A DNA stretch of 49,022 nucleotides. It comes from an uncultured Clostridia bacterium. GTDB lineage: Bacteria; Bacillota; Clostridia; Christensenellales; Borkfalkiaceae. Positions 28,549 to 48,437 of this stretch are shown here, piece by piece. Each line of letters begins with the position of its first letter. The first letter of the stretch is position 1. The DNA is taken from contig CANREJ010000009.1 of NCBI GenBank assembly GCA_947629665.1, positions 1 to 49,022 on the forward strand. The letters are read 5' to 3'. A model generated the notes under the pieces. The model had not been told where the DNA came from and did no database searches. It saw only the letters and a list, made by a program, of their open reading frames with translations. The position numbers and the translations under genes were made by a program.

Positions 28549-31500
28549 TCAGCCATTGGTTGCGGGAACGTTGATCTTCAACGAAATGGAGGTCAACCCG
28601 ACTTGCATTCTCGAACTGCCTATCGCCGAGATCGTAAGTCTAACATAGGTAGCACCCGTTTCATTTGCGTAGGTGAAGACGTTGTTTTGGTTATCTCCGC
28701 TCTCGAAAATCTCAACCGTATTTTTCTCGCCGTCGCCCACTGCTGTACCTGCAACTTCCGTCCACTGTTCGCCGTCTTCGGAAGTCTCGACAACGATCTT
28801 GCTAAATTTTTTCGCCGTAGACGTATCCCACTTTGCAAGGGTGAAGACCACAGAAGTGAACTTTTGACCGCCTGCATACACGACGATATGAGCCGTTTCA
28901 TCGGCCTTTGCCGCCAAAACGGGTTTATCGGTAATCTTTGCCGTACTCCCCGATTGTTTAATCACATTATCCAACGTAACTTTGCCGGCAAAATCGGCAG
29001 TTCCGATGTCAGAAAACTTGAGTTCTTTGTTCGCATAACCACTCCATTGGGCTGCATATGTCGCAAAGTTGGCCGCAAAGTTAAGGTCTGCGGTATGCTC
29101 ACCGGGTGTAGGTACCTCAGAAGGCTCGGTGGGGCGTTCAACTTTATCCCATTGGGTTGCTGTGGGATATACATCGGTACTCGATTTATCAACTTCCTTT
29201 GTGCTGTTATGATCAATAAGATATCCCTTGATTATAAGCTGGTCGCCAACCAACAGAGGATTCTCATCGGAGGCGGGTTTTACAAGAACGCTCTCGTCCC
29301 AATTCAAATTATAAACTTGTAACGAATCATCTTTTGCCGTAGTTGCGCTGTCAGCAATATAAACACTTCTCAGTCCGTGGGTACCATTAAGTTTTCCTAT
29401 ATCCGTTACATAACCCTTGATATAAAACTCTTTATCGGCTCCGCCGCTTTGATAGGTTTCACCACTTGACAAAATGTTAAGGATCTTGAATGCCTCGGCA
29501 ACTGTAAGAGGATGTTCCGCGGTGCCATCGTTTGTAATCAAAGAGCTGAGCGCAATTATTTTAATGGTTATATCTTTTGTTTCGACAGTTGCAGATCCAG
29601 AAGAAATTGTAACAGTAAGTTTAGCTTCTGCTTCCTCTGCGGGAGGAGTTGCAATAACCAACTTGCCATCGTTATCTATTGAAGCATAATCGGAAGCTTC
29701 CTTCATTGCCCAAGCAAGATTAACTTCATTGTTCGCTCCCTCGAACCACTTTGCGGGGAGAGTGTATGAGCCTGCTTCCGTATAGGACTTTTTGCTGAGG
29801 TCAACAACGTCAACAGCTCCCATAATTTTCTCTTCGTCAGTCAAAGTACCGGCTTTGTTAGATTCAACAATGCAACCCGAATCAAATTCATATGTGCCGT
29901 TGTATAATTTAAGCGTACCGGAAATAACTACTTCGTCGCCTGCGGCAATAGTTTTTATAATGCTATCACTACTATTATCTTTTGCACGGTAAGCCATTAA
30001 CTTTTTATCGTTTACTTTAATTGTAAAAGTAATGTTATGATAGTTTGAAGCATAAGCCGTATCGATTCTTAAAACTTTACCTGTAAGTTTGTAAGAGCCT
30101 TTCAAAGAACCGTTTTCAGTTAAAGCAAATAACTTTGTAAGAATATCCTCAGTCGTATATTCATGCCCGCAAACACTGCACACGTTATTGACAATGGTGC
30201 AATCTCCTGTAACGGTCGGTTCGGTGCAACCCTCGCCTTCGCAGGTGCCTGTGTGCTTCCAGGTTGTTGTATCCGTGGTATAACTGTAATCATGGGTGTG
30301 CGTTTCACCGGGCGTTGTACCGCCGGCTGCTGTGTAAGCCTCTAATGTAACATTATGATACGTGCCGTTCTCGTTCCACGAAGTTATTTCTTCGGTAGTC
30401 GAGGTTACAGCACCAGTTGAAGTATCCTTTTTAACATATACTTCAAGATATCCGCAAATTGTAATGGTATCGCCGACTTTAAATTCCGTGATATCTGCTG
30501 CTTTTATAGTGCCGTAGTTAAATGAATAAACATACACGTCATTTTCGGTATCGCCTGCCGTATCGGCAATATAAACTTCTTTATATCCCCAATTTTGCTT
30601 TGTGCCGGCAACGGTAACAATACCTTTTACATATACAGCCTTAGGTGTGCCGTTTGCATCGGTATAATATGTGCTCTCTTCATGGCTTAAACCTTTCAAA
30701 ATGTCAGCGACGTCAGCAACCGAATAAGGATTGTCAACCGAGCTTCCCTTTTCGCTTGTACCTGCTTGCTTAACAGTAATGTGTACGGTTTTTGTACCGG
30801 TTTTTTGTGCGTCGCCCGTACCTGCGGTTGCAGTAACGGTTGCATCAAATGTAACAGCCGTTGCGGGAAGCTCACTTACCGTAAGTTTGTTATCTGCGAT
30901 TGTGTAAGTTGTGTCAGTTGTTGACCAAGTAAAGGTAACGCCTTCAACCGTTGACGCCGTAAGGGTGGTTTCGCCCGCTTCGGTTACGGTGAAAGTATCT
31001 GCAAGAGCCGCAAGAGCCTTAGATATATCCTTCTCCTCCTGCGTTCTGCTGTCGTTATAAGCCGTTGCAGTGGGATTTGTGCTACCGTAATAGGTGATTT
31101 CATAAGTTCCATCATAATTTTGGAGATAACCCTGAACGGTAAGTTCTGCGCCCTCTACAAGATCAGCCTCCGCTTTTATATAAGTATCGTCGAGCTTAAA
31201 CCTGAAAATTTGAATGGCGTTTTCAGATTCGGTGTCGTCCGTATCGTTTACGGCAATGTACACCGCCGTCCAGTTGTTAAAATCTCCATTCCAGCCGCTG
31301 AAACTAATTACATATCCCTTGACCTGTACGAGTACAGGAGAACCCGCCTTGCTATAATAGGTGCCTTCTTTAAGAAGAGCCGCGATTTTATTTGCGTCTG
31401 CCGCAGTATAGGGCGAGGTCGCAGTGCCTTCGCCTGTAAGCGTGGGCGTGGGTTTAAGGGTTATGGCAAGTTCCTTTGTGTCGGAAGGTGCAGAACCCGC

Positions 31501-32580
31501 GGAAATGGTTGCAACAAGCGTTACGGTTGCAGTTCCCTCTGTGGGAAGCGAAGAAATCGTTAATGTGCTACCCGAAACGGTTGCATAAGCTGAATCTTCC
31601 TTTAAAGCCCAAGTTATTGTAGTACCGTTATACTCGGTGGGAAGAGTTGCGGTGTCTTGAATAAAGTAAACGGTTTGTCCAAGTTCCAAGGACTCTTTTG
31701 CACTCGCGATAATTGTTTCGTCGCTTATTTTAGCGCCTTCAACGACTATGGAGTAAAGCCTGATTTGACCGCTGGAAAAAGTAAATTCAAATACGCTTAC
31801 AGCTTCAGCCAACTGTATACCTACAATGTGATTTTCTTCATCATGAGTTACCGTAGCGTTGGGGAACTGAGCTTTAAGGTCGGTTTCAAGCCACGTGGAA
31901 TAGGGTGAATCATTATACCCTTCGTGGCAAGTGAAATCAACGTGAAGAATACCAATGGTTGTATCGGTAAACGCGATAGACGCCTTGGAGCCTTTATAGA
32001 AACGTGCGGGATTGGTATAATCAGCTACGGGCGAACCGCCTGCCGTGTTTGTCAATCTAATACCGCTTGCTTCCCAAATCTGGTGTGTTGCATCCCACTC
32101 CTTACGGTTTGTCGCTACTTTAAAATCAAGCGTTGCGTTTACCGTATCAACGCCCGCGTTTTGTGTCAAAGGCACTTTACGATCGAAAGAAGCTGTTTTT
32201 GTTACGCTGCCTACGGTAACCGAAGCGTTCAGTTTGTACGGAACATCAACCGTTGTACGTACAACATGAACCGTATAATATGAATCGTCGTCCATTTGCT
32301 CGCTTACCGAAACATAGTTGGAGTAATTGGCAACGTCTGACGAAACAGTCCATGAAACAGGAACCTGCACACTTCCAACCGTAACCGAACCGCGAACTTT
32401 GTAGTCGTTTGCAGTGTTTGTGTCATCATTTTCGTACATGGCAATTACCGAACCGATTGCTTGCTGTGCCGTTGCGTTATCGTCGGTGCCGCCACCCTTG
32501 TCGCCGCAAGCGGCAAGCCCGAAGCTCAATGCAAGTACCATCAGGCACGAAGCAATACCGATGAGCCATTTTTTCTTCAT
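28549..32580 (-). CDS. Large multi-OB-fold, Ig-like surface lipoprotein
   Basis: This 1343-aa protein has a lipoprotein signal (GLAAC, Cys25). It alternates Ig-like sandwich domains (about 35-140, 285-375, 525-605, 945-1040) with OB-fold-like modules that share the pattern 'NPY(T/S)(A/V)AxA..IL..G..YY..G....VYVKGYV...VYIAD......D..QVY.......L..GD.L.I.GYL..Y' (about 380-505, 610-745, 840-935, 1045-1155). A cysteine-rich CEGEGC / CTIVNNVCSVCGHEY segment lies near 800-835, and the last 170 residues look like a discoidin-type binding domain. No catalytic motif is visible. Such OB modules occur with secreted nucleases such as B. subtilis YhcR. As last gene of the nuclease/deo array it may bind nucleic acid at the cell surface (inference). 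Confidence 0.8.
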   Translation of the reverse strand: MKKKWLIGIASCLMVLALSFGLAACGDKGGGTDDNATAQQAIGSVIAMYENDDTNTANDYKVRGSVTVGSVQVPVSWTVSSDVANYSNYVSVSEQMDDDSYYTVHVVRTTVDVPYKLNASVTVGSVTKTASFDRKVPLTQNAGVDTVNATLDFKVATNRKEWDATHQIWEASGIRLTNTAGGSPVADYTNPARFYKGSKASIAFTDTTIGILHVDFTCHEGYNDSPYSTWLETDLKAQFPNATVTHDEENHIVGIQLAEAVSVFEFTFSSGQIRLYSIVVEGAKISDETIIASAKESLELGQTVYFIQDTATLPTEYNGTTITWALKEDSAYATVSGSTLTISSLPTEGTATVTLVATISAGSAPSDTKELAITLKPTPTLTGEGTATSPYTAADANKIAALLKEGTYYSKAGSPVLVQVKGYVISFSGWNGDFNNWTAVYIAVNDTDDTESENAIQIFRFKLDDTYIKAEADLVEGAELTVQGYLQNYDGTYEITYYGSTNPTATAYNDSRTQEEKDISKALAALADTFTVTEAGETTLTASTVEGVTFTWSTTDTTYTIADNKLTVSELPATAVTFDATVTATAGTGDAQKTGTKTVHITVKQAGTSEKGSSVDNPYSVADVADILKGLSHEESTYYTDANGTPKAVYVKGIVTVAGTKQNWGYKEVYIADTAGDTENDVYVYSFNYGTIKAADITEFKVGDTITICGYLEVYVKKDTSTGAVTSTTEEITSWNENGTYHNVTLEAYTAAGGTTPGETHTHDYSYTTDTTTWKHTGTCEGEGCTEPTVTGDCTIVNNVCSVCGHEYTTEDILTKLFALTENGSLKGSYKLTGKVLRIDTAYASNYHNITFTIKVNDKKLMAYRAKDNSSDSIIKTIAAGDEVVISGTLKLYNGTYEFDSGCIVESNKAGTLTDEEKIMGAVDVVDLSKKSYTEAGSYTLPAKWFEGANNEVNLAWAMKEASDYASIDNDGKLVIATPPAEEAEAKLTVTISSGSATVETKDITIKIIALSSLITNDGTAEHPLTVAEAFKILNILSSGETYQSGGADKEFYIKGYVTDIGKLNGTHGLRSVYIADSATTAKDDSLQVYNLNWDESVLVKPASDENPLLVGDQLIIKGYLIDHNSTKEVDKSSTDVYPTATQWDKVERPTEPSEVPTPGEHTADLNFAANFATYAAQWSGYANKELKFSDIGTADFAGKVTLDNVIKQSGSTAKITDKPVLAAKADETAHIVVYAGGQKFTSVVFTLAKWDTSTAKKFSKIVVETSEDGEQWTEVAGTAVGDGEKNTVEIFESGDNQNNVFTYANETGATYVRLTISAIGSSRMQVGLTSISLKINVPATNG

Positions 32581-32628
32581 TTTGTTTCTCCTTTTTTTAT
32601 TTTTTTGATTTTGTTTATATTACTCCCA

Positions 32629-32645
32629 TTCCGTTTGGAACGGAA
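32629..32645. repeat. Short inverted repeat between two lipoprotein genes
   Basis: TTCCGTT and AACGGAA with a 3-nt loop. No T run; it may weaken read-through or mark a processing site. Confidence 0.4.
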
Positions 32646-32652
32646 AGAAATA

Positions 32653-34053
32653 TCATTGTGCAAATGTAAAGCAACTGTATTCCCAAACGGAAATTTGATA
32701 AGCGCCGCTGTAATAATCTACAATGCCGTGTACGGAGGAAATTGATTTGCCTTCGAAATCAGCCTCGGCATAGAGCGTGGTTCTATCGGCCTTATACAAA
32801 GGTTCCGTGCGCAAAACAATGGATTTTTGGTTTGCGTCCGCACAGGTTATGGATATTTGACCCGTGGGAATCTTGTTGCCGGCACTATCTTCCTTTTTTG
32901 TGCTGTACATTGAGGTTATACCCAAATCTTTGATCGATACGTGGGTATCCATAATCGCCTGACCGTAGTCAATGGTGAGTTCTTCTTTTGTTTCCTCGCC
33001 GTCTTCGCCGGTTTTAAAGAACGTGGCTGTTACCTTGCGTGTGCCGTCAACCAAATCGGCAACCGAAACTTGGGTGCAGGGCACCTCGTTATCTGTGCTT
33101 ACAAGTTGGGTGTTTTCCAGAAGGTTAGGACGGACTTCGTTGTGGTCAACGCCTGAAATTTGATAGGTGCCGTTGAACTCGCCGACCGTACCCATTACGT
33201 CAACCTCGTTACCGACTTTGAGTATATCGAGAAGTTTGCCTGTTTTATAGCCATAATAAACGGCTATACCGTAGGAAACTTCTGTTTCTTCGTCATACTC
33301 TTCAATGTAAACGCTGTTGCCGTATCTTGCCGTAACTATGCCCGTTACGCGCACGGGGTGCTGAATGTAATCTTCCATGTGGAAGCGAAGATATTTTAAA
33401 GTTATATTTTCGCCGGCATTGCCAAAATAGTTGGGGTCGGTTTTGTTGCTGAACACGTTGAGTTTAAGCTGTTGGGCCTGGAAGAGCGCCGCACCCGCAA
33501 TTTCGCCGTAGCGGTTATCGGAAGTTTTTGAGGAACGGCCGTAGCCTTCCTGCAAAAGCTCCACGTTTAAGTTGCGGTATTCGGTGCCGCCATTGGGCAT
33601 ATACCATACCCAAAGAAGATATCTTTCGCCCGTGGAATCTACGTTCCAATTGCCGTCGTCGCTTTCAACAATTATCTTTTGGGCGTTGACCAGCTTCTCG
33701 TGGGTGAAGTTAGAGGCGGTTTTGCCCCACTTCTCTACCACGCCCGTGGATTCGGGCGTGTTTACCGCGAGATAACGTGCCTTTATGTAACCGTCGATAA
33801 AATCACCGGAGTTACTTGTGGGGGTGAAGTGGGTCGTGTCGCCGTCGATATAAAATTTGACGGTAACTTCCTGCTTCTTTGTTTCGGAGTCCATGTCAAG
33901 TTTGAGCTGGCTGACATAATCTGTCATTTCCGTACCGGAACCGCCGCCGGAGCCCGAACCCCCGTTGTCTTTTTCGCCGCAAGCGGCAAAAACCGTAAGC
34001 GCGAGGGCAATTACGCAAATAAGCGTTACAATTCTTATAAAAAGTTTCTTCAT
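32653..34053 (-). CDS. Secreted thermonuclease (SNase) lipoprotein with OB-fold domain
   Basis: This 466-aa lipoprotein (FAAC, Cys25) has a staphylococcal nuclease domain at about 55-215. Key elements are kept: FYIDGDTTHF, the catalytic Arg and Glu in ARYLAVNTPES, the second Arg in STGERYLLWVWY, and LNVELLQEGYGR. It should cut DNA and RNA with calcium at the cell surface. Residues about 230-310 form an OB-like module (VRVTGIVTARYGNSVYIEEY) like those of the downstream 1343-aa protein. The gene starts 3 nt after the ABC binding protein stop, without a Shine-Dalgarno, so translation is likely coupled. Confidence 0.92.
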   Translation of the reverse strand: MKKLFIRIVTLICVIALALTVFAACGEKDNGGSGSGGGSGTEMTDYVSQLKLDMDSETKKQEVTVKFYIDGDTTHFTPTSNSGDFIDGYIKARYLAVNTPESTGVVEKWGKTASNFTHEKLVNAQKIIVESDDGNWNVDSTGERYLLWVWYMPNGGTEYRNLNVELLQEGYGRSSKTSDNRYGEIAGAALFQAQQLKLNVFSNKTDPNYFGNAGENITLKYLRFHMEDYIQHPVRVTGIVTARYGNSVYIEEYDEETEVSYGIAVYYGYKTGKLLDILKVGNEVDVMGTVGEFNGTYQISGVDHNEVRPNLLENTQLVSTDNEVPCTQVSVADLVDGTRKVTATFFKTGEDGEETKEELTIDYGQAIMDTHVSIKDLGITSMYSTKKEDSAGNKIPTGQISITCADANQKSIVLRTEPLYKADRTTLYAEADFEGKSISSVHGIVDYYSGAYQISVWEYSCFTFAQ

Positions 34054-34056
34054 AAA

Positions 34057-35541
34057 TTAATTACCGTATTTACCTACACATTCGCTTAAAGCGTCCTGGA
34101 AAGCCTTGTCGATGGATTTTGTTCCTACAAGCGCGGCCTGCATTAAAAGACCAACCTGGGTGCGGGCGTCGGAAGAGCCGTAGAACGCGGGCGATACAAA
34201 GTAGTGATCCTCATAATCCATGCCCACTTTAACTGCCTGCGCCGTGAGATAGTTGCTACCGTTTGCGTTGTCTATAAACGTGTTATATGCGGAAATTTCG
34301 GACATTACATCCCTTGTAAGTACGGGCATATAGCCGTTATTCATGGCAACTTCGGTTTGATACAGGGGGTTGGTTGTGAAGAACTTAACAAACAGCCAGC
34401 TTGCAATGACCTTTTGAGGGTCGTCATCTTTAAAGATACATACAGAAGGTCCCTGCGAAATGAGCTTTATGTTTTCAAGATTTGCCTGGGGAACGGGAGC
34501 TATACCTACTTCAAAAGGCACCGTTGAACTGCTGGTATCGGTATTATACGTTGCGCCGCCCGTGGAACCTATGCTCATATATATATTTTTATTTGTGAAA
34601 AGATCGGAAGTGTAATCAACACCGGAAAGCGCAGATGTTGTGCAGTAACCTTTATCTTTCCATTCTTTAAATTTCTGCACAAATTCCTTGTTTTTGTCGT
34701 TATTGAAGCGGAATTTGGGAGACGACGAAGAAGTATATTCGGTGCCCAACTGTTCGCACATGGTAATAAACCAGTTTTCCTCGGAGTCATAACCGAAAGG
34801 AATACAGGTGGGATCTATCTCCAATATTCGCTTGCAAAGCGCTTCCATATCATCCCAGGTTTTGGGAACTTCCAAAGGATGGCTGGGATCTTCAAAGAAA
34901 TCCTTATTATAGAACATCATTTCCGTGGACTTGATCCAGGGTAAAGTGTACATTATGCTTGAATCTTCAAACGAATACCCCTCGTTGAAATAGATGGGGT
35001 TGTACATTGCCTGTTCTTCCGCAGTGAGTCCAAGGGGACGGTCTGCCAAAACAGGCTCACCGCCGTCCAAAATGTTCCCCTCTTCGTCGATATAGTTACC
35101 TTCCGTATCAACGAGATATGTGGGAACCGTAACGCCCTTTAAACTGCCGTCGGCAAGGAAGCTGTTTAAAGGCTGCACTGCATTTGCAACATTGTATTGC
35201 GCAACGTGGTCGGAATAGCAGTATGCAATATTGGGATGATTGCCGCCTTGAAGTTCCTTAACAATAGTCGACTGTACGCCTGACCAATCGCCCTGCGGGG
35301 TATGCTCAACATGTATATTGGGATACATTTTTTCAAATATTGCAATATAATCGTTGAGAATATTCTGCAAAGTACCGCCCATCTGGTGATAGAAGGTGAT
35401 TGTTACGTCCTTTGACGTGTCAAATCCGCCTTCGGGCATTACAAAGTCAGAAGCGCGTTTGCTTCCGCAAGCCGTAAGCCCAAAAGCCACAGAGCAAGCC
35501 ATAGCGCCGGCCAGTAACATTGCACCGAGTTTCTTTTTCAT
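34057..35541 (-). CDS. ABC transporter substrate-binding lipoprotein, family 1 (CUT1/UgpB-like)
   Basis: This 494-aa lipoprotein (GLTAC, Cys25) is a family 1 solute-binding protein: VTITFYHQMGG at the start of the mature domain, LPWIKSTEMMFYNKDFF, VPKTWDDMEALCKRI, and MNNGYMPVLTRDVM. This family usually binds sugars, glycerol-3-phosphate or phosphodiesters. Position between two permeases and a secreted nuclease in a deoxynucleoside-catabolism array suggests nucleosides, nucleotides or their breakdown products, but the ligand cannot be read from sequence. AAAGGAG precedes the ATG. Confidence 0.93.
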   Translation of the reverse strand: MKKKLGAMLLAGAMACSVAFGLTACGSKRASDFVMPEGGFDTSKDVTITFYHQMGGTLQNILNDYIAIFEKMYPNIHVEHTPQGDWSGVQSTIVKELQGGNHPNIAYCYSDHVAQYNVANAVQPLNSFLADGSLKGVTVPTYLVDTEGNYIDEEGNILDGGEPVLADRPLGLTAEEQAMYNPIYFNEGYSFEDSSIMYTLPWIKSTEMMFYNKDFFEDPSHPLEVPKTWDDMEALCKRILEIDPTCIPFGYDSEENWFITMCEQLGTEYTSSSSPKFRFNNDKNKEFVQKFKEWKDKGYCTTSALSGVDYTSDLFTNKNIYMSIGSTGGATYNTDTSSSTVPFEVGIAPVPQANLENIKLISQGPSVCIFKDDDPQKVIASWLFVKFFTTNPLYQTEVAMNNGYMPVLTRDVMSEISAYNTFIDNANGSNYLTAQAVKVGMDYEDHYFVSPAFYGSSDARTQVGLLMQAALVGTKSIDKAFQDALSECVGKYGN

Positions 35542-35607
35542 TGTGTTCTCCTTTATATTTTTTTGTTAAACATTTTTTGCTTTATGTTGGAATCGGCTGA
35601 CGCCTTA

Positions 35608-36537
35608 TCAGCCCTTGATACCGCTTCTCGAAACTCCGCGCATTATATATTTGCGGAAGAATAAGAACACGAGCAACAGAGGTATAGTTACCAAAACTAC
35701 CGCCGCCATCTGCGCGGGAATATTAACAAGCCCGCTTGCCGTTGTGAACGCCGCGCCGCGGAGGCCTACCGTTACCAATCTGTGCGCCAGGTCGTTGGCG
35801 ACAAGTTTTGGCCAGATATAGGAGTTCCACGCACCCATCATTTTGAGAATTGTAATTGATATGAGCGTGGGAGCCGAAAGGGGAATCATAACTTTCCACA
35901 GATATTTCAAATCGCTTGTCCCATCCACCTTTGCGGCAAGATACAACTCGTTTGGAATCTGCATAAAATTCTGCCTTAAAAGGTAAATATAGAACACGCT
36001 CACAAGGAACGGAACTATCAGCGCGGCAAACGTATTGCGCCAATCAAACCAATTGACTACCGTGATATAGTTTGTTATCGTAAACAGCTCGCCTGGAATC
36101 ATCATTGTGGCCAAAAGAGCCGCAAACAGCACGTTTTTGCCCTTGAAATCAAGCCTTGCAAAGGCATATGCCGAGAGCACGGTAACAACGAGCGAAAGAA
36201 TTGTGGAAACTACGCCCACTATAACGGTGTTGAGGAATAGTTGCCCCAAATGCAAATCTCCCGTAAACGCCATAGCATAGTTTGACCACTCAAACTGTTT
36301 AGGCCAGAGCGTGGGAATCATTTGGTTGTACTCGTTCATCGTCTTTACGGACGAAATAAGCATAAAGTAGAACGGGAACAACACCGTAACGGCCATTAAT
36401 GTAAGAAAGGTGTACAGACCTATATTAATAAACACCTTGCGTACTTTCTGCTTTTTTGTTGTAGACGTTACGCTCGCCGAATTATTTTTTTGCTTCGGAG
36501 GTTTGTCATTTTGAATTACGTTGATTTCTTCTGCCAT
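35608..36537 (-). CDS. ABC transporter permease, MalG/UgpE type
   Basis: This 309-aa permease has a 30-residue cytoplasmic Lys-rich tail, six membrane helices and the EAA motif near residue 205 (ELYLAAKVDGTSDLKYLWKVMIPLSAPTLISI). It pairs with the MalF/UgpA-type permease encoded just upstream. The ribosome site is AAGGGGG. Confidence 0.95.
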   Translation of the reverse strand: MAEEINVIQNDKPPKQKNNSASVTSTTKKQKVRKVFINIGLYTFLTLMAVTVLFPFYFMLISSVKTMNEYNQMIPTLWPKQFEWSNYAMAFTGDLHLGQLFLNTVIVGVVSTILSLVVTVLSAYAFARLDFKGKNVLFAALLATMMIPGELFTITNYITVVNWFDWRNTFAALIVPFLVSVFYIYLLRQNFMQIPNELYLAAKVDGTSDLKYLWKVMIPLSAPTLISITILKMMGAWNSYIWPKLVANDLAHRLVTVGLRGAAFTTASGLVNIPAQMAAVVLVTIPLLLVFLFFRKYIMRGVSRSGIKG

Positions 36538-36551
36538 AATTTACCCCCTTA

Positions 36552-37481: not shown

Positions 37482-37484
37482 AAA

Positions 37485-39851: not shown

Positions 39852-39898
39852 TCAAAATACTCCGCGCGGCAAACCGTCATTACTACTTTCTTTGAAAC

Positions 39899-39927
39899 AT
39901 TATACCACAGTTACTAACCGAAAACAA
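39899..39927 (-). promoter_or_regulatory. Sigma-A promoter before the RDD gene
   Basis: TTGTTT (39922-39927), 17-nt spacer, TATAAT (39899-39904) with TGG (extended -10). It would allow RDD-ABC transcription independent of the upstream deo genes. Confidence 0.65.
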
Positions 39928-39988
39928 TACTTTAACTAAAAATTATTCAAGAAAAGTAAAATGTTTTTTATTGACAAATTTTACCACC

Positions 39989-40603: not shown

Positions 40604-40619
40604 GTTACACTTTACCTTG

Positions 40620-41774
40620 CTATCTGTCAATGAGCTCCCCCGCGCTTTCCAACGCCGCTTTATTTGCCGAAGCCGCGTCCCTGTTGCATGAGTCTACATA
40701 TTCGTTATACTTGCGGATTGCCTCATTAAAAGCGGCAATATCTTCCGCCGCCAACTGCTTTTCGGCCTCATCAGTTATGGCGCGCAGAGCGTTTGCGGCT
40801 TTTACAAGCGAGGCAAGCCTCGTGCCGATGGAACCTTCTTCAACAATCTCCTCCACTGCGGCATGGAACGCTTCTACATTTCCGTGCTTTTGACCGCCAC
40901 CCAAAGTTTCGCCGCCCCAGATTGCGTCTGCATATTCGGGATGATCGATGAAGGGATTGCGGTTGCCCTGTATTTTATATACTTCTTCGTTTCTGCGTTC
41001 TTCAATCTCGTCCACGGGGTCGAGTTCGTTCCATTTTAAAATGATTTCTTTTGCGGCCGCTTCGCTGCCGGCCAAAATAATATGCGTAAAATTCAGCGTG
41101 CCGAAATACTTTGAATTGCCGTTACCGTTTGTTGTGCCAAATACATTTTGATAGGTGTTGTAGTGGGTATACACATACATTACAATTCTTGCAACGTCGC
41201 CTTTTACGTTATCCAGCGGTTCAAAAGCACCCGCCGCCTGATAGCCGCCGAGCTGCGAGTTGCTTCCGGACACCGTTTTTGAATAAATTTTTTGTCCGTT
41301 TGTAACTTCGCCATACCTATAACCTTCACGCCCGCTGTTCATCTTGACTTCGGTGGGACGAATATGGTGCATATCGGAGCCGCCGCCGTCTGTACCCCAA
41401 AGCCCATTTGAAAGAGCTTTCGGCCAAACATGCTCGCGGTTCCATCTTCCCGCATCGCTCCCGGTTTTCGTATACTCCACTATCGTTTCGTGCGTATAGA
41501 ACTCAATGATACTCTTTTCATCGCCCGGCGCATAGTCTGTGGTGTGCGCATTGTCTCTGCAATCGTTATAGGAAGCATAATATTTATGCGTGGTCGTAAT
41601 CAAATCGTGTATCTGCCCCAATAGCTCATTGCCGCCCGTTGCGGTTATGGGTGCATAATAACTTTGCGTATCGGCTGTAACGGTTTTATTATTTAACCCG
41701 CCCGCCGCAATAACGCCGAACGCCAGCAAAGCGGCGCAACAAACCGAAGCTATTGATTTTATTGCTCTCTGCAT
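40620..41774 (-). CDS. Secreted endonuclease I family nuclease
   Basis: This 384-aa protein has a signal peptide (about 1-38, no lipobox) and an endonuclease I domain (about 40-290): the metal/His motif WNREHVWPKAL and GGGSDMHHIRPTEVKMNSGREGYRYG are clear, then GDVARIVMYVYTHY. Endonuclease I cuts DNA (and RNA) without sequence preference outside the cell. The last about 65 residues are a helical Ala/Glu-rich tail. The ATG at 41774 lies just after the tdk stop and has GGAGAGG. Confidence 0.92.
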   Translation of the reverse strand: MQRAIKSIASVCCAALLAFGVIAAGGLNNKTVTADTQSYYAPITATGGNELLGQIHDLITTTHKYYASYNDCRDNAHTTDYAPGDEKSIIEFYTHETIVEYTKTGSDAGRWNREHVWPKALSNGLWGTDGGGSDMHHIRPTEVKMNSGREGYRYGEVTNGQKIYSKTVSGSNSQLGGYQAAGAFEPLDNVKGDVARIVMYVYTHYNTYQNVFGTTNGNGNSKYFGTLNFTHIILAGSEAAAKEIILKWNELDPVDEIEERRNEEVYKIQGNRNPFIDHPEYADAIWGGETLGGGQKHGNVEAFHAAVEEIVEEGSIGTRLASLVKAANALRAITDEAEKQLAAEDIAAFNEAIRKYNEYVDSCNRDAASANKAALESAGELIDR

Positions 41775-41775
41775 G

Positions 41776-42366
41776 TCAGCGCGCCTCTCCACGTTGCTCT
41801 TTTAATTTATTAAGCCAACATTTTCTGCACATTGCAACGTATCTGTTGTTTCCGCCGATACATATCTGCGAGCCTTCGGTAACTATGTTTCCGTTATCGT
41901 CCAGCCGCGCGTTCACCGTTGCCTTTGCTCCACACGTGCATATTGATTTTATTTCGCTTATGGACTCGGCAATTTCAAACAGCCGCTTACTGCCGGGAAA
42001 AAGATGGGTTGTAAAGTCTGTGGCAAGCCCGAAACAGAGAACAGGTATATTTTGCTCTATAACTATATCCGAAAGTTGGTCAACCTGTTCGGGAGTGAGA
42101 AACTGACATTCGTCAACAATAATCACATCGCAGTCGGCATAGCTTTTAAGATATAATTGGCGGATATCCTCGTTTGCGCCCACCGTTACCGCCTCTTTTT
42201 GAAGCCCTATGCGGGATTTAACTACGTTATAGCCGTCGCGGGTGTCCACCGCGGGTTTTAAAAGAAGAACTTTCATGTTGCGTTCTTCATAGTTGAATTT
42301 TGTTATGAGCGCCTGCGCCGTTTTGGAACAGCCCATCGCACCGAACTTAAAATATAACTTTGCCAT
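41776..42366 (-). CDS. tdk: Thymidine kinase (type II)
   Basis: This 196-aa enzyme phosphorylates thymidine or deoxyuridine with ATP. The P-loop reads GAMGCSKTAQA, Walker B is VIIVDECQFL, the substrate lasso is near residues 150-190, and four Zn-binding cysteines are present (CTCGAK and CRKCW). In this operon it can keep part of the imported thymidine for DNA synthesis while Pdp degrades the rest. Confidence 0.95.
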   Translation of the reverse strand: MAKLYFKFGAMGCSKTAQALITKFNYEERNMKVLLLKPAVDTRDGYNVVKSRIGLQKEAVTVGANEDIRQLYLKSYADCDVIIVDECQFLTPEQVDQLSDIVIEQNIPVLCFGLATDFTTHLFPGSKRLFEIAESISEIKSICTCGAKATVNARLDDNGNIVTEGSQICIGGNNRYVAMCRKCWLNKLKEQRGEAR

Positions 42367-42383
42367 CTTTTTCTCTTTGGAAT

Positions 42384-43685
42384 TTATTTTATAACGCCGT
42401 AAACGAGAGGCTCTGCTTGGGGCTTTTCACTCCCGATAACGGTAGCCGAAAGCAGTTGTTTTTGCGCCGTTGCCAGCGAGGACTCGTTGTTGGAGTAAAG
42501 AACTGCAATATCCTCCCCCTCGCGGACAAAATCGCCCGTCTTTTTCCTTAATATAATTCCCGCGCTGTAATCTATTACGTCGTCCGCCCTGTTTCTGCCT
42601 GCGCCGAGCGCAAGACTTGCCAACCCATAGGCCTCTGTATCCGCGTCGAGAATATATCCGCTCATGGGACTCTTTACCGCAAACGAATATTTTGCCCTTG
42701 CAAAATTATCCGTATTTTCAATGAGTGCAGAGTCGCCGCCCTGGGCTTTGACCGTTTCAACCAACTTATTTAACGCACTGCCGTTTTCAATGGCCGTGCG
42801 GGCAAGTTTTTCACATTCCTCATACGTGCCCTTGCCTGCAAGGGAAAGCATATGGGCGGAAAGAGTTATGCACACTTCCGTAAAATCGGCGGGACCGCGG
42901 CCGCGCAAAGTTTCCACCGCCTCTATAACTTCAAGGGAATTGCCTATCGCATACCCCAGAGGCATGTCCATGTTTGTAATCAGCGCAACCATTTTTTTGC
43001 CTGCGCGCTTGCCTATATCAACCATTATGCGGGCGAGTTCCGTGCTCTTTTCAACGGTTTTCATGAAGGAACCGCTGCCCGTTTTTACGTCCAGAACTAT
43101 GCAATCGTCGTCCGCGGCAAGTTTTTTACCCATTATGCTTGCGGCAATAAGCGGCATACTGTCCACCGTTGCCGTAACGTCGCGCAGGGCGTAAAGTTTT
43201 TTGTCGGCAGGGGCAAACTGTTTGGATTGCCCTACTATTGCAAGTCCTATTTTGTTTACCTGCTCTATAAATTCGGCGTCGGAAAGAGTTGTACGGAACC
43301 CGCTGATAGCTTCCAGCTTATCAACCGTTCCTCCCGTGTGTCCAAGTCCCCTGCCGCTCATTTTTGCAACCTTTATTCCGTATGAGGCGACGATTGGCGC
43401 AACAACCAAGCTTGTTTTATCGCCCACGCCGCCCGTGGAGTGTTTATCCACGCGGATTCCGCGGATTGCCGAAAAATCAACTTTTTCGCCCGAATCGCGC
43501 ACGGCAAAAGTCAAATCGCAGGTTTCGCGTTGGGTCATTCCGCGGAAATATATTGCCATACACAGCGCGGAAATCTGATAGTCGGGAATACTGCCGTCGG
43601 TAACGCCGCCGATAAAATATTTTATTTCTTCGGTGGTAAGCTCACCGCCGTCCCGCTTCTTTTTTATAATATCGTACATTCTCAT
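42384..43685 (-). CDS. pdp: Pyrimidine-nucleoside phosphorylase
   Basis: This 433-aa enzyme splits uridine, thymidine and deoxyuridine with phosphate into base and (deoxy)ribose-1-phosphate. The N-terminal MYDIIKKKRDGGELTTEEI, the phosphate-binding VDKHSTGGVGDKTSL (near 80), and KMSGRGLGHTGGTVDKLE are diagnostic. The C-terminal domain resembles a lipoyl-like fold (FVREGEDIAVLYSN). It follows the 5'-nucleotidase gene by 5 nt. Confidence 0.96.
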   Translation of the reverse strand: MRMYDIIKKKRDGGELTTEEIKYFIGGVTDGSIPDYQISALCMAIYFRGMTQRETCDLTFAVRDSGEKVDFSAIRGIRVDKHSTGGVGDKTSLVVAPIVASYGIKVAKMSGRGLGHTGGTVDKLEAISGFRTTLSDAEFIEQVNKIGLAIVGQSKQFAPADKKLYALRDVTATVDSMPLIAASIMGKKLAADDDCIVLDVKTGSGSFMKTVEKSTELARIMVDIGKRAGKKMVALITNMDMPLGYAIGNSLEVIEAVETLRGRGPADFTEVCITLSAHMLSLAGKGTYEECEKLARTAIENGSALNKLVETVKAQGGDSALIENTDNFARAKYSFAVKSPMSGYILDADTEAYGLASLALGAGRNRADDVIDYSAGIILRKKTGDFVREGEDIAVLYSNNESSLATAQKQLLSATVIGSEKPQAEPLVYGVIK

Positions 43686-43690
43686 AGCTT

Positions 43691-45442
43691 TTATGCCCAG
43701 CCTCCGCCCTTTATAAAGTCGGCAAGCAGATCCCTTGCATAAATTTCTCCGTCCAGACGGGCAACTTCCGTAATCTTCCTTGAATAATATGAAGACGTGT
43801 ATGTATCTATAATGATATAGTAATATGAATTGTCTATTACAGCCGACGAGGTTATAGTCGAATATACGTGGTACTTGGAGTTATTCAGGAATTTGTCTTT
43901 TAAATCACTGCCCCTGATTCTGCCCAAAACTATTGCGTTATCAAAAGGCAACACGGCGGCAACATCCGCATAGGTTACGTCGCCCGCATAAATATTGTAA
44001 GGATTGCGCGCGTTGAGATATCCGCCACCAAGCACAATGTTGTCGTATTGTTCTCCCCAGACTTCCAAACCTTTTCGATAGTACAATTCGGCAACTTTGT
44101 TAACTATGGTTTCCGAATTTCTAAGGGATTTATTGTGGCCTATAACATCGTAAGGGTTGCTGTCGGGGAAATACTTGTTAAACAATTCTTCAACGATAGG
44201 GTCGTCCCCAATAGTGTCCTTTGCATATGTTGCGCTTCCAATCAGTTTCGGCGCAACCGAATATTCCCCTGTAACTGTGTTAAAGGAAACGTTTGCGCAA
44301 CTTATATATCTGTTTTCGCTACTCGCCTGCATATGATAGATGCCGTATTCGTCCTGTAAAATATACCGCTGGTGGGTGTGTGCCTCAAAAACCAAATCCA
44401 CATAACCATCTGAAAGAGCAGTATCATAATAAGCCATATCGCTGTTTTTTACCGAAACAATGCCCGACGAAGAAAAATCATCTCCGCCGTCGTGAATGGA
44501 ATAGACGATAAAATCGCACTCTTCTTCGTTTCTTAATCTATCCGCTTCGTTTTTTACAAGAGTAGTGAGCGCATTGCCCGTTGCAAAAGAAAGCCCGTCG
44601 CTAAACTCGCCGGAAATAGAACCCAAACAATCGCCGATTGCCCCTATAATACCTATTTTTACTCCGCCTTTTTCCAACACAACGGACGCCTTGCAATAGC
44701 CCACAGCCTTGCCTTGATAGGTAACATTGATTGCAAGGAAGGGAAATTCCGCAATCTCGCTGTTGGGAGTAAGCACGTCGGGACCCCAATCAAATTCGTG
44801 ATTGCCGAGCGTCATAGACGCAAACCCCGCCTCATTCATCCATTCGGTCATAAGTTTACCTTTGTTGGACGAGGACTCCACAGTGCCCTGCCACATGTCC
44901 CCAGACGATAGCAGGATTTCCTCCCGCTCTTCATCCGCATACAAGGTTTTTAAATAAGTGGTAAATTCGTCAACGCCGGGCTGGGTGTCCGTATCCATAA
45001 ATTTGCCGTGCAGGTCGTTTACAGCATAAAAAGACAGCTCGGAAATAACGCTCTCGCCGCCGTAATCACAAATTCCGTCCCCGTTAAAATCCGTGTGGTC
45101 ATGGTTGGGGGCTACTTCTCCCTTTACATATGTTTTGTCGGCGGAAAAATCGCTATCGCCATAATCGTTGTGCCCGCTTATGGCCTTGACCTTTATGGAT
45201 TGCCCCTCTTTCAACGTAGCGCTACATTTTGCGGTAAAAATTTCTTCACCGCCATCTATCACATAGCAATAATAAAGCGCCTTGTCGATTTCGTTCCACA
45301 CAGCAACGCCGTCCTGCCCGATAATTACCTCAGGCGTGTCGAGCCTGGGCTTTTGCTCCGTTTTATCGCAACCCGCAAATAAAACGCAGGCAAACAGCGC
45401 AGCGAACAGGAGACATGAAATTTTGCGTAAAAAAACTTTCAT
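43691..45442 (-). CDS. Lipoprotein 5'-nucleotidase / UshA-like phosphoesterase
   Basis: This 583-aa lipoprotein (LFAGC, Cys25) has a small beta domain (about 35-110), a calcium-loop-like HTDFNGDGICDYGG, then a calcineurin-type metallophosphatase (VNDLHGKF, SSGDMWQG, TLGNHEFDWG, VFEAHTHQRY) and the 5_nucleotid_C domain (about 410-580, YADVAAVLPFDN). It should remove phosphate from nucleotides outside the membrane so that nucleosides can be imported. No Shine-Dalgarno is seen; it lies 26 nt after cdd. Confidence 0.94.
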   Translation of the reverse strand: MKVFLRKISCLLFAALFACVLFAGCDKTEQKPRLDTPEVIIGQDGVAVWNEIDKALYYCYVIDGGEEIFTAKCSATLKEGQSIKVKAISGHNDYGDSDFSADKTYVKGEVAPNHDHTDFNGDGICDYGGESVISELSFYAVNDLHGKFMDTDTQPGVDEFTTYLKTLYADEEREEILLSSGDMWQGTVESSSNKGKLMTEWMNEAGFASMTLGNHEFDWGPDVLTPNSEIAEFPFLAINVTYQGKAVGYCKASVVLEKGGVKIGIIGAIGDCLGSISGEFSDGLSFATGNALTTLVKNEADRLRNEEECDFIVYSIHDGGDDFSSSGIVSVKNSDMAYYDTALSDGYVDLVFEAHTHQRYILQDEYGIYHMQASSENRYISCANVSFNTVTGEYSVAPKLIGSATYAKDTIGDDPIVEELFNKYFPDSNPYDVIGHNKSLRNSETIVNKVAELYYRKGLEVWGEQYDNIVLGGGYLNARNPYNIYAGDVTYADVAAVLPFDNAIVLGRIRGSDLKDKFLNNSKYHVYSTITSSAVIDNSYYYIIIDTYTSSYYSRKITEVARLDGEIYARDLLADFIKGGGWA

Positions 45443-45468
45443 ATTATATATTTAAATTATTTAAAAAA

Positions 45469-45873
45469 TTACAAATCTTGTTTGGTAAAGGTAAGCGGTA
45501 AAAGCCTGTCCAATGTATAAACTTCAAATTTGTTTTCATTGCCTAAAATTATTTTAAAATCTTTGGGGCAAAACTCCGCAATAACTTGCCTGCAAACCCC
45601 GCACGGAGCGCAAAATTCGGCGGTTTCACCCTCTCTGCCTCCCACTATCGCAAGAGCCTCGAAGTCGCGCTCGCCCTCGCTTACGGCCTTAAAAATTGCC
45701 GTGCGCTCGGCGCAAACGGTTGCCGAATATGCGGCGTTTTCAATATTGCACCCCAAATAAATTTTTCCGCTCTTTGTTAAAAGCGCCGCCCCCACGCGAA
45801 AACGGGAATAGGGCGAATATGATTTTTCCCGCGCTGTTTGGGCTTGCGCCATTAAAAAACGGAAATCGGTCAT
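45469..45873 (-). CDS. cdd: Cytidine deaminase
   Basis: This 134-aa zinc enzyme deaminates cytidine and deoxycytidine. The active site reads CNIENAAYSATVCAERTAIFKA with the Cys-Ala-Glu, and the other two zinc cysteines are in PCGVCRQV. Overlaps deoB by 4 nt. It feeds deoxyuridine to Pdp. Confidence 0.97.
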   Translation of the reverse strand: MTDFRFLMAQAQTAREKSYSPYSRFRVGAALLTKSGKIYLGCNIENAAYSATVCAERTAIFKAVSEGERDFEALAIVGGREGETAEFCAPCGVCRQVIAEFCPKDFKIILGNENKFEVYTLDRLLPLTFTKQDL

Positions 45874-47033
45874 TTTTTTACCTCATTCAAAAAACTTGTT
45901 CCGTAAGTGTTTTGCTGGGCAACCCCAAAATAATCCAAAACCGTTGCGCTTATGTCCGCAAAACTCTGCCGCGTGCCTAAATTTATTCCGCCTTTGATAC
46001 GCTTTCCGTAAATCAGCATGGGCGTATATTCGCGGGAATGGTCGGTTGAAGGCGTTGAGGGGTCGCAACCGTGGTCTGCGGTTATTAAAAGAACGTCGTC
46101 CCCGCGCATATCTTTTATAAATCCCGCCAAAAAATTATCGAACTCGGTGGCCGCCGCGGCGTAACCCGCAACGTCGTTTCTGTGGCCGTACTTCATGTCG
46201 AAGTCAACCAAATTCACAAAGCAAAGCCCCTCAAAATCTCTGTTTTGGATTTCCTTTGTTACCTGCATACCGTGCGTATTGGAAGTTGTGCGGTTGCTTT
46301 CGGTAATGCCGCTACCGGCAAAAATATCGTAGATTTTACCTACCGAAATAGTATCGAAGCCCGCCCCTTTTAAAAGATTCAGCATAGTATCCGCAGGCGG
46401 TTCCAGCGAAAAATCGTGCCTGTTGGGAGTACGGGAAAACGGATATTCACCGTTGAACGGACGCGCAATCACCCTGCCAACGCCGTGAGGCGGTACAAGC
46501 ATTTTACGGGCAATTTCACAGTATTTGTAGAGCTGTTCAACGGGCACTATATCCTCGTGTGCGGCAATTTGAAATACGCTGTCAGCCGAAGTATATACAA
46601 TCAACGCGCCCGTTTCAATATGTTCGCGCCCGTAATCTTTAATAACTTCCGTGCCCGAATAGGGCTTGTTGCAAATTACGCGCCTGCCCGTTTTTTGCTC
46701 AAATTCTTTTATTATTTCATCGGAAAAACCGTTGGGGTATGTGGGCAAAGGATCGGACGATACCACGCCGGCAATCTCCCAGTGCCCTATCGTAGTATCT
46801 TTCCCCATTGACTTTTCGCGCATGCGGGCGTAGCTTGCCGTGGGCGCGCCGACTCCCCCGCCAACGCCATCGATATTGAACAGCCCCATGGCTTTGAGTT
46901 GGGGGCAGTTGAAATTGGCGTGGCTGCGTATTGCGCCGAGGGTGTTACTGCCCTCATCGTGCCATAAATACGCGTCGGGAAGCTCGCCGACGCCAAAACT
47001 ATCAAGCACAATCAAAAAAAATCTTTTTGACAT
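45870..47033 (-). CDS. deoB: Phosphopentomutase
   Basis: This 387-aa alkaline-phosphatase-superfamily mutase converts (deoxy)ribose-1-phosphate to the 5-phosphate. Motifs are IVLDSFGVGELPDA at the N-terminus, GKDTTIGHWEIAG with the phosphorylated Thr, and LLITADHGCDPSTPSTDHSREYTPMLIYG for metals. The ribosome site is AGGTGA. Confidence 0.97.
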   Translation of the reverse strand: MSKRFFLIVLDSFGVGELPDAYLWHDEGSNTLGAIRSHANFNCPQLKAMGLFNIDGVGGGVGAPTASYARMREKSMGKDTTIGHWEIAGVVSSDPLPTYPNGFSDEIIKEFEQKTGRRVICNKPYSGTEVIKDYGREHIETGALIVYTSADSVFQIAAHEDIVPVEQLYKYCEIARKMLVPPHGVGRVIARPFNGEYPFSRTPNRHDFSLEPPADTMLNLLKGAGFDTISVGKIYDIFAGSGITESNRTTSNTHGMQVTKEIQNRDFEGLCFVNLVDFDMKYGHRNDVAGYAAAATEFDNFLAGFIKDMRGDDVLLITADHGCDPSTPSTDHSREYTPMLIYGKRIKGGINLGTRQSFADISATVLDYFGVAQQNTYGTSFLNEVKK

Positions 47034-47052
47034 TTAAATCACCTATGCTCTT

Positions 47053-47772
47053 CTATGCCAATTCAAGAGCGATTTTCATCATTGCCGTAAATGATTTTTC
47101 ACGTTCCTCGGCGGTGGTATTTTCTTCTGGATAAATAAAACTGTCGCTCACGGTGCAGATGCACAGGGCCTTTTTACCCGCTCTCGCGGCGTTACAATAA
47201 AGCGCCGCGCTCTCCATTTCTACGCCGAGAACGCCCATTTTTGCCCATTGCATGCCGCTCTTGGCGTCGTCGTAAAACATATCGGAAGAAAAAATATTGC
47301 CCACTTTATAGTTTACGCCCGCCTGTTCGCACAGGTCGGCGGCACGCCGCAACAGCCCGAAATCGGCAATCGGGCAGAAAGTGCCTGGCAAATTATATTG
47401 TTTGGCGTAGTTGCCGTTTGTACATGCGCCCTGCGCAATTATTATATCCCGTGCATGTAAATCCTTATCGAACGAACCGCAGGAGCCTACGCGGATAATG
47501 TTTTCGACGCCGTAAAAATTGAACAGTTCATAGGAGTAAATCCCTATTGCAGGCTGTCCCATTCCCGAAGCCATAACCGAAACGCGTTTGCCGTTATAGT
47601 ATCCCGTGTAGCCGTTTACTCCGCGCACGTTGTTTACAAGCGTTGCGTTTTGAAGAAAATTCTCGGCTATAAATTTTGAACGCAACGGGTCGCCCGGCAT
47701 AAGCACGGTCTTTGCAAAATCGCCGTACTTTGCGGCAATGTGCGGAGTGGGAATATTGGGGCGCTCACTCAT
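47053..47772 (-). CDS. deoD: Purine-nucleoside phosphorylase, DeoD type
   Basis: This 239-aa hexameric-type phosphorylase splits purine (deoxy)nucleosides. Typical blocks are VLMPGDPLRSKFIAENFL, YEL..YGVENIIRVGSCG, VEMESAALY and CTVSDSF. Overlaps deoC by 4 nt; AGGAG precedes the ATG. Confidence 0.97.
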   Translation of the reverse strand: MSERPNIPTPHIAAKYGDFAKTVLMPGDPLRSKFIAENFLQNATLVNNVRGVNGYTGYYNGKRVSVMASGMGQPAIGIYSYELFNFYGVENIIRVGSCGSFDKDLHARDIIIAQGACTNGNYAKQYNLPGTFCPIADFGLLRRAADLCEQAGVNYKVGNIFSSDMFYDDAKSGMQWAKMGVLGVEMESAALYCNAARAGKKALCICTVSDSFIYPEENTTAEEREKSFTAMMKIALELA

Positions 47773-48437
47773 AATAAATTCTCCTCTTTAACTATTTTTA
47801 CGATGCGCGAAGTGCCCAATCTGTCTGCGCCGAGCGCAATAAACTTTTCGGCGTCTGCAATGGAAGATATACCCCCCGCCGCCTTGATTTTTATGCCTAA
47901 ATTATGCTTTTCGATTTCATTTTTGAAAATTTCAACGTCCCGGAAGGTTGCGCCCGCCTTGGAAAAGCCCGTAGACGTCTTGATGAAGTCCGCGCCCGCC
48001 AACGCAACGAGGTGGGGCGCCATTATCTTTTCAAGCTCGTTGAGAAGGCATGTTTCAACGATGACTTTTAAAATTTTATCCTTGCAACAGCTCTTCACCA
48101 GCTGAATTTCGTCGCGGACGGCTTCGTAATGGTGCGCCTTCATTTCGCCGATATTGATGACCATATCGACTTCGTCCGCACCGAGCGAGACCGCTTCGGC
48201 CGCCTCGGTGTATTTCGACATTGGCGTATTGTACCCGTTGGGGAACCCGATGACCGTGCAGACGGCAACCTTGCCCTGCGCATACTCATTCGCCTGCTTT
48301 ACATAGCAAGGCGGAATACACACCGAGGCGGTGTGATATTTAATTCCGTCGTCAATAAGCGCGCGTATATCCTCCCACGTGGCGGTTACCGAAAGTTGTG
48401 TGTGGTCGCATTTTCCTAAAATTTCACGAATGTCCAT
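47769..48437 (-). CDS. deoC: Deoxyribose-phosphate aldolase
   Basis: This 222-aa class I aldolase splits deoxyribose-5-phosphate into acetaldehyde and glyceraldehyde-3-phosphate. The N-terminal KCDHTQL, the VIGFPNGYN segment and the Schiff-base lysine in ADFIKTSTGF (near 155) are present, as is KAAGGI. First gene of the array, with a strong promoter and AGAGGT ribosome site. Confidence 0.97.
   Translation of the reverse strand: MDIREILGKCDHTQLSVTATWEDIRALIDDGIKYHTASVCIPPCYVKQANEYAQGKVAVCTVIGFPNGYNTPMSKYTEAAEAVSLGADEVDMVINIGEMKAHHYEAVRDEIQLVKSCCKDKILKVIVETCLLNELEKIMAPHLVALAGADFIKTSTGFSKAGATFRDVEIFKNEIEKHNLGIKIKAAGGISSIADAEKFIALGADRLGTSRIVKIVKEENLL

Follow-up and report, generated by a model that had tools for sequence, protein, structure and literature searches.

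A putative nucleic-acid utilisation locus around a predicted short-oligonucleotide importer in an uncultured Clostridia bacterium

Loci in which nuclease genes adjoin genes for an ATP-binding cassette (ABC) transporter are already known, the precedents being those of mycoplasmas and of the Izemoplasmatales. DNA is an abundant food in gut and sediments and, to our knowledge, the step at which its breakdown products are taken up is poorly known outside the NupC and NupABC systems. The locus described here lies on a 49,022-base contig, the whole of which is called the window, from an uncultured Clostridia bacterium with a genome of 1.86 Mb in 94 contigs. It consists of an array of 16 consecutive open reading frames, all on the minus strand (28549–48437), and of four related genes next to it (24556–28452), and we put at about 0.57 the probability that the whole is a locus for the use of nucleic acids, mainly DNA, organised around an importer of very short oligonucleotides. 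A reading made earlier without database searches (referred to below as the sequence-only reading) had ended the locus at 28549, a range that is too short as the four neighbouring genes belong with the array. Its description of sixteen consecutive minus-strand genes with named families is borne out by the open reading frame listing and by the Pfam and NCBIfam profile searches, with curated cut-offs, from which the family assignments of window proteins are taken.

In Mycoplasma agalactiae the SNase gene MAG_5040 is co-transcribed with MAG_5030 (P80) and MAG_5050–5070, a system for which the import of precursors of nucleic acids has been proposed. The M. bovis PG45 genes deoC and pdp are numbered 0300–0301 and those of a putative nucleotide transporter operon 0307–0311, and the mycoplasma protein MslA is said to bind DNA, its cargo being termed nucleotides (PMC3585158, PMC4045577). 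Compared by description, the mycoplasma operon resembles the window in that an SNase lipoprotein adjoins a 'sugar'-type substrate-binding lipoprotein, an ATPase and two permeases, whereas endonuclease I, SurE, deoB/deoD and the OB protein are absent from the available description. X. coldseepsis (Izemoplasmatales) is reported to grow better with added E. coli DNA/RNA and to induce the genes of its locus, and the DNA-degradation loci of the Izemoplasmatales, again compared by description, are like the window in clustering extracellular nucleases, phosphohydrolases and ABC transporters (PMC8289736, PMC8397711). Their transporter is called a probable nucleoside or nucleobase transporter (PMC8289736); unlike the window they show no deo genes in the available locus description, and they come from another lineage and another habitat. 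The locus of Hujiaoplasma nucleasis includes NrnA and ABC transporters, as here, with an extracellular ribonuclease and many genes that are induced by DNA/RNA, but this is a deep-sea wall-less organism and the available description names neither importer type nor cargo (PMC10470597).

The bacterial deo operon shares deoC, deoB, deoD, pdp and cdd with the window; NupC or NupABC go with the usual deo operon, whereas the deo set of the window is joined to nucleases and an importer of the CUT1 family. Apart from the systems named, the literature, covered mostly through its open-access part, yielded no account of the present locus in Clostridia and none of an ABC importer that takes up oligonucleotides as nutrients. 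What appears to be new is the reading of the transporter as an oligonucleotide importer linked with NrnA, SurE and deo genes in Clostridia, Bacilli and some records titled Spirochaetales, together with the union with a deo set in Clostridia, the recurring association with NrnA-like, SurE and NT5C genes and a binding-protein pocket of dinucleotide type; there is a fair chance that import of this cargo as a nutrient has not yet been shown in these bacteria. If the cargo is indeed a dinucleotide, a testable cargo could be assigned to a large set of transporters whose present annotation is that of sugar importers, NrnA-like enzymes would gain a nutritional role, and the mycoplasma nuclease–ABC operon would be easier to explain.

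The importer and the surface proteins

The importer and the proteins predicted to act with it at the cell surface are encoded as follows.

43691–45442, minus strand: 5'-nucleotidase-like surface lipoprotein (Metallophos, PF00149, and 5_nucleotid_C, PF02872, above cut-off).
40620–41792, minus strand: endonuclease I, probably secreted (PF04231, 133 bits; N-terminus hydrophobic by eye).
38997–39851, minus strand: RDD-family membrane protein (PF06271), belonging to the conserved core.
37485–38873, minus strand: ABC importer ATPase, UgpC/MalK-like (PF00005; top NCBIfam match UgpC, 345 bits, below the cut-off of 432).
36552–37481, minus strand: ABC permease, MalF/UgpA-like (PF00528).
35608–36537, minus strand: ABC permease, MalG/UgpE-like (PF00528).
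34057–35541, minus strand: substrate-binding lipoprotein, predicted to bind dinucleotides or short oligonucleotides (SBP_bac families only in Pfam).
32653–34053, minus strand: SNase lipoprotein with a C-terminal OB-like part (PF00565, 35 bits; catalytic residues kept).
28549–32580, minus strand: 1343-residue OB-fold/aBig_2/F5_F8-like surface lipoprotein (PF01336 and PF20578 above cut-off over the whole protein).

With an SBP_bac_1/8 binding protein, two BPD_transp_1 permeases and a MalK/UgpC-like ATPase in adjacent genes, the importer is of CUT1 type. The solved structures nearest to its binding protein, by sequence and by predicted fold alike, are those of the Thermus thermophilus dinucleotide-binding protein crystallised with UpG (entries 7c0f to 7c19), which is about 20% identical to it and shares most pocket residues; UgpB comes second by fold. 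The eight residues mutated in the Thermus protein, taken from the titles of the structure entries with a numbering shift of 2 read off the mutant sequences, align to W86, Y109, D111, S205, Y310, S326, Y332 and Q363 of the window protein. S205, Y310, Y332 and Q363 are identical in the two, and Y56, F79, N81 and T240 of the Thermus protein are replaced by W86, Y109, D111 and S326. Among the 89 proteins of the type I clade (defined below) six of these eight columns are invariant, position 332 is Tyr in 39, and position 86 is Tyr in 77 and Trp, as in the window, in 12.

One report describes the phosphate coordination of the phosphodiester-binding branch of CUT1 proteins and a double-Trp clamp by which UgpB holds the glycerol part (PMC12718374). 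The phosphate-coordinating set of two Tyr and two Ser, which the glycerol-3-phosphate importer UgpABCE (also CUT1) has in common with the window, is represented here by position 86, S205, S326 and Y404, the last three invariant in type I. UgpB differs from the window protein at 310, 332 and 363 (Gly in place of Gln363), and its clamp has no full counterpart, W192 and W195 of the E. coli protein (precursor numbering) standing opposite Ser253 and Asn256 in an alignment that is locally uncertain; residues 250–264 of the window protein hold a single Trp, W257. Against the NCBIfam UgpB equivalog the binding protein scores 44.4 bits (cut-off 411), and all Ugp scores lie below their cut-offs. In a tree of binding proteins to which the Thermus protein and E. 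coli UgpB were added, the Thermus protein sits on a long branch beside UgpB-like rows, a placement that gives no support to a shared clade with the window protein. The structural comparison points to a phosphodiester cargo as opposed to a carbohydrate. Dinucleotides or similarly short oligonucleotides would fit better than nucleosides because the nearest structure binds a dinucleotide and because short oligonucleotides and nucleotides are the substrates of NrnA-like and SurE enzymes, which are encoded next to the importer; judged by structural similarity, pocket residues and gene neighbours, we give such a cargo a little better than an even chance, and the nucleosides or related products named as CUT1 cargo in the sequence-only reading have been replaced by it.

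The window SNase has an SNase fold with the catalytic Arg/Glu/Arg, DGDT and TPE motifs, and when its predicted model was used whole for fold searches all 50 rows shown by each program were SNase entries. No fewer than 95% of the 24 endonuclease I sequences in the alignment retain N118-R119-E120-H121 and W123, and GNHE and the other metal-site columns of the 5'-nucleotidase are likewise retained in at least 95% of 20; the latter protein scores below every NCBIfam nucleotidase cut-off. The 1343-residue lipoprotein, which had been called a multi-OB-fold protein, does match PF01336 over its whole length (31 bits, cut-off 27), but no individual stretch passes alone, and four segments searched separately gave two weak matches to PF01336 below cut-off and two without any OB match.

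Conservation of the importer and its neighbours

Within the genus (37 genomes, that of the window included) close homologues of the binding protein, of DeoB and of the 5'-nucleotidase are all found in the same five genomes, and SurE and the NT5C fusion in these five and in G035; a weak 5'-nucleotidase match in G034 and a match to the guanylate-kinase part alone in G008 are left out of these counts. The gene order of the array is the same in G014, G006 and G017, and in G009 it is split over two contigs by a break in pdp. G035 has the SurE/NrnA/NT5C block with no match to the binding protein or DeoB, and its contig breaks off within a long open frame that occupies the position of the OB lipoprotein gene and has no match to that protein. 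The co-occurrence, with synteny where contigs allow, supports the earlier claim as far as it concerns a single nucleic-acid-using system with a CUT1-type importer; a constant association of the ABC and deo halves is not supported.

Scanning genome contigs with a profile made from the binding-protein alignment gave at least 573 relatives, of which the best 80 are the basis of the counts that follow. The control loci, 54 in total, came from 391 surveyed genomes of the class, and of these loci 22 belong to a sister clade (type II) and 32 to other CUT1 proteins; two distant relatives with SNase (L217, L218) were set apart as a third group before counting, and a partial fragment (L226) was also excluded. 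In 79 of the 80 relatives the genes for permease, binding protein and SNase adjoin one another when recognised genes are considered, the SNase gene following that of the binding protein; the SNase catalytic motif can be read in 78, L111 and L143 being cut off by the end of the contig. In the controls SNase was found at none of the sister-clade loci and at one of the other 32 (L240), where it is without the catalytic motif; the Fisher value for SNase (1e-19) counts related loci as independent and is not used as a probability. The conserved unit is RDD–ATPase–permease–permease–binding protein–SNase–OB lipoprotein, with RDD present in 68 of the 80 and a recognisable OB lipoprotein in 62, and pairwise identity among 63 binding proteins, window included, is 44–93%. 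A neighbourhood due to chance was rejected on the strength of the 80 loci and the controls.

Types I and II were defined by a tree of 148 binding proteins, in which the type I clade (n = 89) has SNase in 88 and the type II clade (n = 24) in none. Grouping the class survey by profile score alone (at least 368 bits) was rejected, 22 of the 25 such loci belonging to the sister clade without SNase; the score misled because the first alignment included one sister-clade protein. The type I system was found in at least five of the 391 class genomes (G000, G294, G315, G415 and G419, with at most four candidates scored per genome), that of G419 being a contig-end fragment assigned through its RDD gene and that of G415 (L216) branching outside the main type I clade, and it is patchy across Clostridia at large. 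Among 395 Bacilli genomes sampled, 220 or more contain a match to the binding protein at 1e-12 or better, and among 40 loci picked by hand across the score range from the matches listed, 33 have an SNase with the catalytic motif (35 by a loose profile) and 21 an NrnA-like gene.

This linkage bears on the possibility that the transporter is an ordinary importer of glycerol phosphate or oligosaccharides that lies by chance between nuclease and deo genes. Such an importer would suit the CUT1 family, the nearest NCBIfam names (Ugp and Glc) and the second place of UgpB by fold, and another CUT1 locus in this genome, next to genes that by eye resemble GH65, seems to be an ordinary sugar locus. Set against the presence of SNase in both samples of relatives, the Ugp scores and the incomplete clamp, this explanation is highly improbable.

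The four genes of the neighbouring block are the following.

27730–28452, plus strand: surE, 5'/3'-nucleotidase, in a convergent block (TIGR00087, 161 bits, cut-off 135).
26753–27733, plus strand: NrnA-like DHH-DHHA1 phosphoesterase 2 (PF01368, PF02272; NrnA model 237, cut-off 350).
25818–26756, plus strand: NrnA-like DHH-DHHA1 phosphoesterase 1 (PF01368, PF02272; NrnA model 241, cut-off 350).
24556–25755, minus strand: NT5C 5'(3')-deoxyribonucleotidase fused to a guanylate-kinase-like domain (PF06941, 61 bits, and PF00625, 55 bits, both above cut-off).

By analogy with their families, all four products would act on short oligonucleotides or nucleotides, and they are taken to be cytosolic because they have no lipobox and, by eye, no signal peptide. 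NrnA is the best family match of both stand-alone DHH-DHHA1 proteins at scores under the equivalog cut-off, for which they are called NrnA-like and not filed as NrnA; a catalytic DHH motif is present in at least one such protein at each of the 40 type I loci that have the gene. According to two reports, NrnA-family enzymes favour 2- to 4-mers, and tight binding by B. subtilis NrnA requires a 5' phosphate (PMC9757072, PMC12709177). NrnA-like genes are present at 40 of the 80 loci and SurE at 39, with SurE and both NrnA-like genes at 36 of the 56 that have at least 9.5 kb downstream of the binding protein, and the SurE gene is on the strand opposite to that of the binding protein in 38 of 39 cases. 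The controls have NrnA at none of 22 and one of 32 loci and SurE at none of either. The NT5C fusion, which puts a nucleotide phosphatase and a kinase-like domain in one chain, was found at 14 of the 80 and is kept near the importer in several relatives.

Import of mononucleotides, such as 3'-phosphates released by SNase, with SurE and NT5C dephosphorylating them inside the cell, would also make use of these neighbours and of a pocket with residues of phosphate-binding type, but it gives no part to the NrnA-like pair, which acts on oligonucleotides and was not found at 53 of the 54 control loci, and the nearest solved structure contains a dinucleotide; we regard it as decidedly unlikely. In the sequence-only reading, endonuclease I, SNase and the surface 5'-nucleotidase yield nucleosides outside the cell, and the CUT1 importer delivers these to the deo enzymes. 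The 5'-nucleotidase and a deo set that works on nucleosides do lie within one run, and in searches that covered two nucleoside transporter families, BmpA and NupC, BmpA/PnrA (PF02608) was not found in any of the 37 genus genomes (11 of the 61 genomes of a wider set of relatives have it) nor NupC in any of the 61, so another nucleoside route may be needed. Nucleoside import would, however, leave the NrnA-like, SurE and NT5C enzymes without an imported substrate, the pocket retains the phosphate-coordinating Tyr/Ser set, and the 5'-nucleotidase, as opposed to SNase, is nearby in 17 of the 80 relatives (17 of the 50 whose upstream flank reaches 9.5 kb), which together make it unlikely. Endonuclease I was found at 18 of the 80 and at 14 of those 50; many stretches are short.

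Several variants of the locus were seen. Two Bacilli loci (L287 and L288, genomes of 2.8–3.0 Mb) show a simpler form, ATPase–permease–permease–binding protein–NrnA–SurE in a stretch that lacks a nuclease, and six others (L255, L256, L266, L271, L277 and L290) have two tandem binding-protein genes ahead of SNase, perhaps for two cargo sizes. Three records titled Spirochaetales (L105, L111 and L131) carry the type I module; in the binding-protein tree they are nested among Clostridia, a placement suggestive of horizontal transfer or else of misbinning. At the type II loci (L194–L215) there are an ATPase and permeases and no nuclease was found; in 13 of the 22 the same-strand gene after that of the binding protein encodes, by eye, an OB-type lipoprotein of 245–302 residues, and the one that was searched gave only a weak PF01336 match. 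Type II binding proteins have the pocket columns of type I except for Trp at 332 and Lys at 252. It is possible, and we offer it tentatively, that the core is an 'oligonucleotide permease', the nucleic-acid analogue of the oligopeptide permeases, in which a nuclease and OB-fold proteins at the surface supply a CUT1 importer with dinucleotides or nano-oligonucleotides that enter intact, and dedicated NrnA-like enzymes inside the cell put these to nutritional use. Such a permease would occur widely in Bacilli, patchily in Clostridia and also in some Spirochaetales, with the nuclease-free type II as a form for scavenging only. NrnA-type enzymes have so far been viewed mainly as agents of RNA clean-up.

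The deo genes and a proposed route of DNA use

The remaining features of the array are these.

48520–48548, minus strand: promoter-like site upstream of deoC (TTGACA-17-TAAAAT, 11 of 12 consensus positions; weak evidence).
47769–48437, minus strand: deoC, deoxyribose-phosphate aldolase, the final catabolic step (TIGR00126, 215 bits, cut-off 117).
47053–47772, minus strand: deoD, purine-nucleoside phosphorylase (TIGR00107, 289, cut-off 232).
45870–47033, minus strand: deoB, phosphopentomutase (TIGR01696, 457, cut-off 341).
45469–45873, minus strand: cdd, cytidine deaminase (TIGR01354, 154, cut-off 114).
42384–43685, minus strand: pdp, pyrimidine-nucleoside phosphorylase (TIGR02644, 572, cut-off 409).
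41776–42366, minus strand: tdk, thymidine kinase (NF003300, 238, cut-off 195).
39989–40630, minus strand: small lipoprotein with no Pfam match, conserved in close relatives (homologue at 12 of the 80 loci).

DeoC, DeoD, DeoB, Cdd, Pdp and Tdk each score above one or more curated NCBIfam cut-offs. Eleven of the 15 intergenic gaps in the array are below 30 nt or are overlaps, in line with the gaps of mostly under 30 nt given before, though the 'several' 4-nt overlaps of that account were generous as two were counted; the four longer gaps are 66 nt (binding protein/permease), 72 nt (OB/SNase), 123 nt (ATPase/RDD) and 137 nt (RDD/lipoprotein), and the genes may well be co-expressed. The contig end bounds the view upstream of deoC, and promoter-like consensus matches are common in the region, 42 being found in 32500–49022 where 27.6 are expected.

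In the genus of the window the deo genes sit upstream of RDD. At least one of five deo genes lies within 10 kb of the binding protein in 24 of the 80 relatives, and in 12 of 38 when each flank is required to reach 9.5 kb, against none of 22 and two of 32 control loci. The notion of an inseparable unit of ABC and deo halves was rejected as it stood: the two co-occur in the genus, but among the 80 relatives they are near one another in that minority, against two of the 54 controls. In G048 a single close-packed run reads SurE–NrnA–NrnA–DeoD–Cdd–DeoB–DeoD–DeoC, with 2 nt between NrnA and DeoD; L117 and L127 have this order as far as the stretch extends, and L146 has it without cdd. In L088, L108, L096 and L145 NrnA is followed by an HD protein and then by DeoD/DeoC or DeoC, and in L112 the deo genes are divergent. 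The HD protein, which resembles dGTPase (top NCBIfam score 185, cut-off 393), occurs at 13 of the 80 loci, after NrnA in several. As the layouts differ between lineages, they suggest that the link between the enzymes of oligonucleotide cleavage and those of deoxyribose breakdown arose more than once.

In the proposed route, endonuclease I and the SNase lipoprotein would cut DNA, and probably RNA too, outside the cell, while the OB-fold lipoproteins may keep the strand close at the membrane. Dinucleotides or similar nano-oligonucleotides would be captured by the CUT1-type binding protein and passed on to the permease pair and the ATPase. In the cell, both NrnA-like enzymes would cleave the oligonucleotides to mononucleotides, SurE and the NT5C fusion would take off the phosphates, Cdd, DeoD and Pdp would release the bases, DeoB and DeoC would convert the sugar to glyceraldehyde-3-phosphate and acetaldehyde, and Tdk would retain part of the thymidine. 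Two points fit this scheme badly: SNase products carry 3' phosphates, whereas B. subtilis NrnA wants a 5' phosphate, and a surface 5'-nucleotidase, where it is near the importer, generates nucleosides outside the cell. A different question, compatible with any cargo, is that of purpose. The array might supply nucleotides for growth by salvage in place of carbon catabolism, as the presence of tdk within it would allow and as is thought of the mycoplasma counterparts, which would provide precursors (PMC3585158, PMC7373297), but DeoC and DeoB in the same run indicate breakdown of the sugar, and salvage as the main purpose seems to us somewhat unlikely.

Other features of the window

An aquaporin/glycerol-channel family protein (PF00230; 23681–24439, minus strand) adjoins the NT5C fusion and has the same place in G014, G006 and G017. 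Farther from the locus, an OLE RNA lies at 16129–16701 on the minus strand (RF01071, 403 bits, gathering threshold 50, full model matched), and directly downstream of it a 214-residue protein (15451–16095) with a weak CNNM match below cut-off could be a partner protein. A bacterial end-joining pair is encoded at 85–3370, LigD (with ligase, phosphoesterase and polymerase domains) and Ku lying side by side on opposite strands. Members of the SpoIVB-peptidase (10629–11627), SpoIIIAE (20588–21850) and SpoIIIAA (22709–23611) families indicate that the host is probably a spore former.

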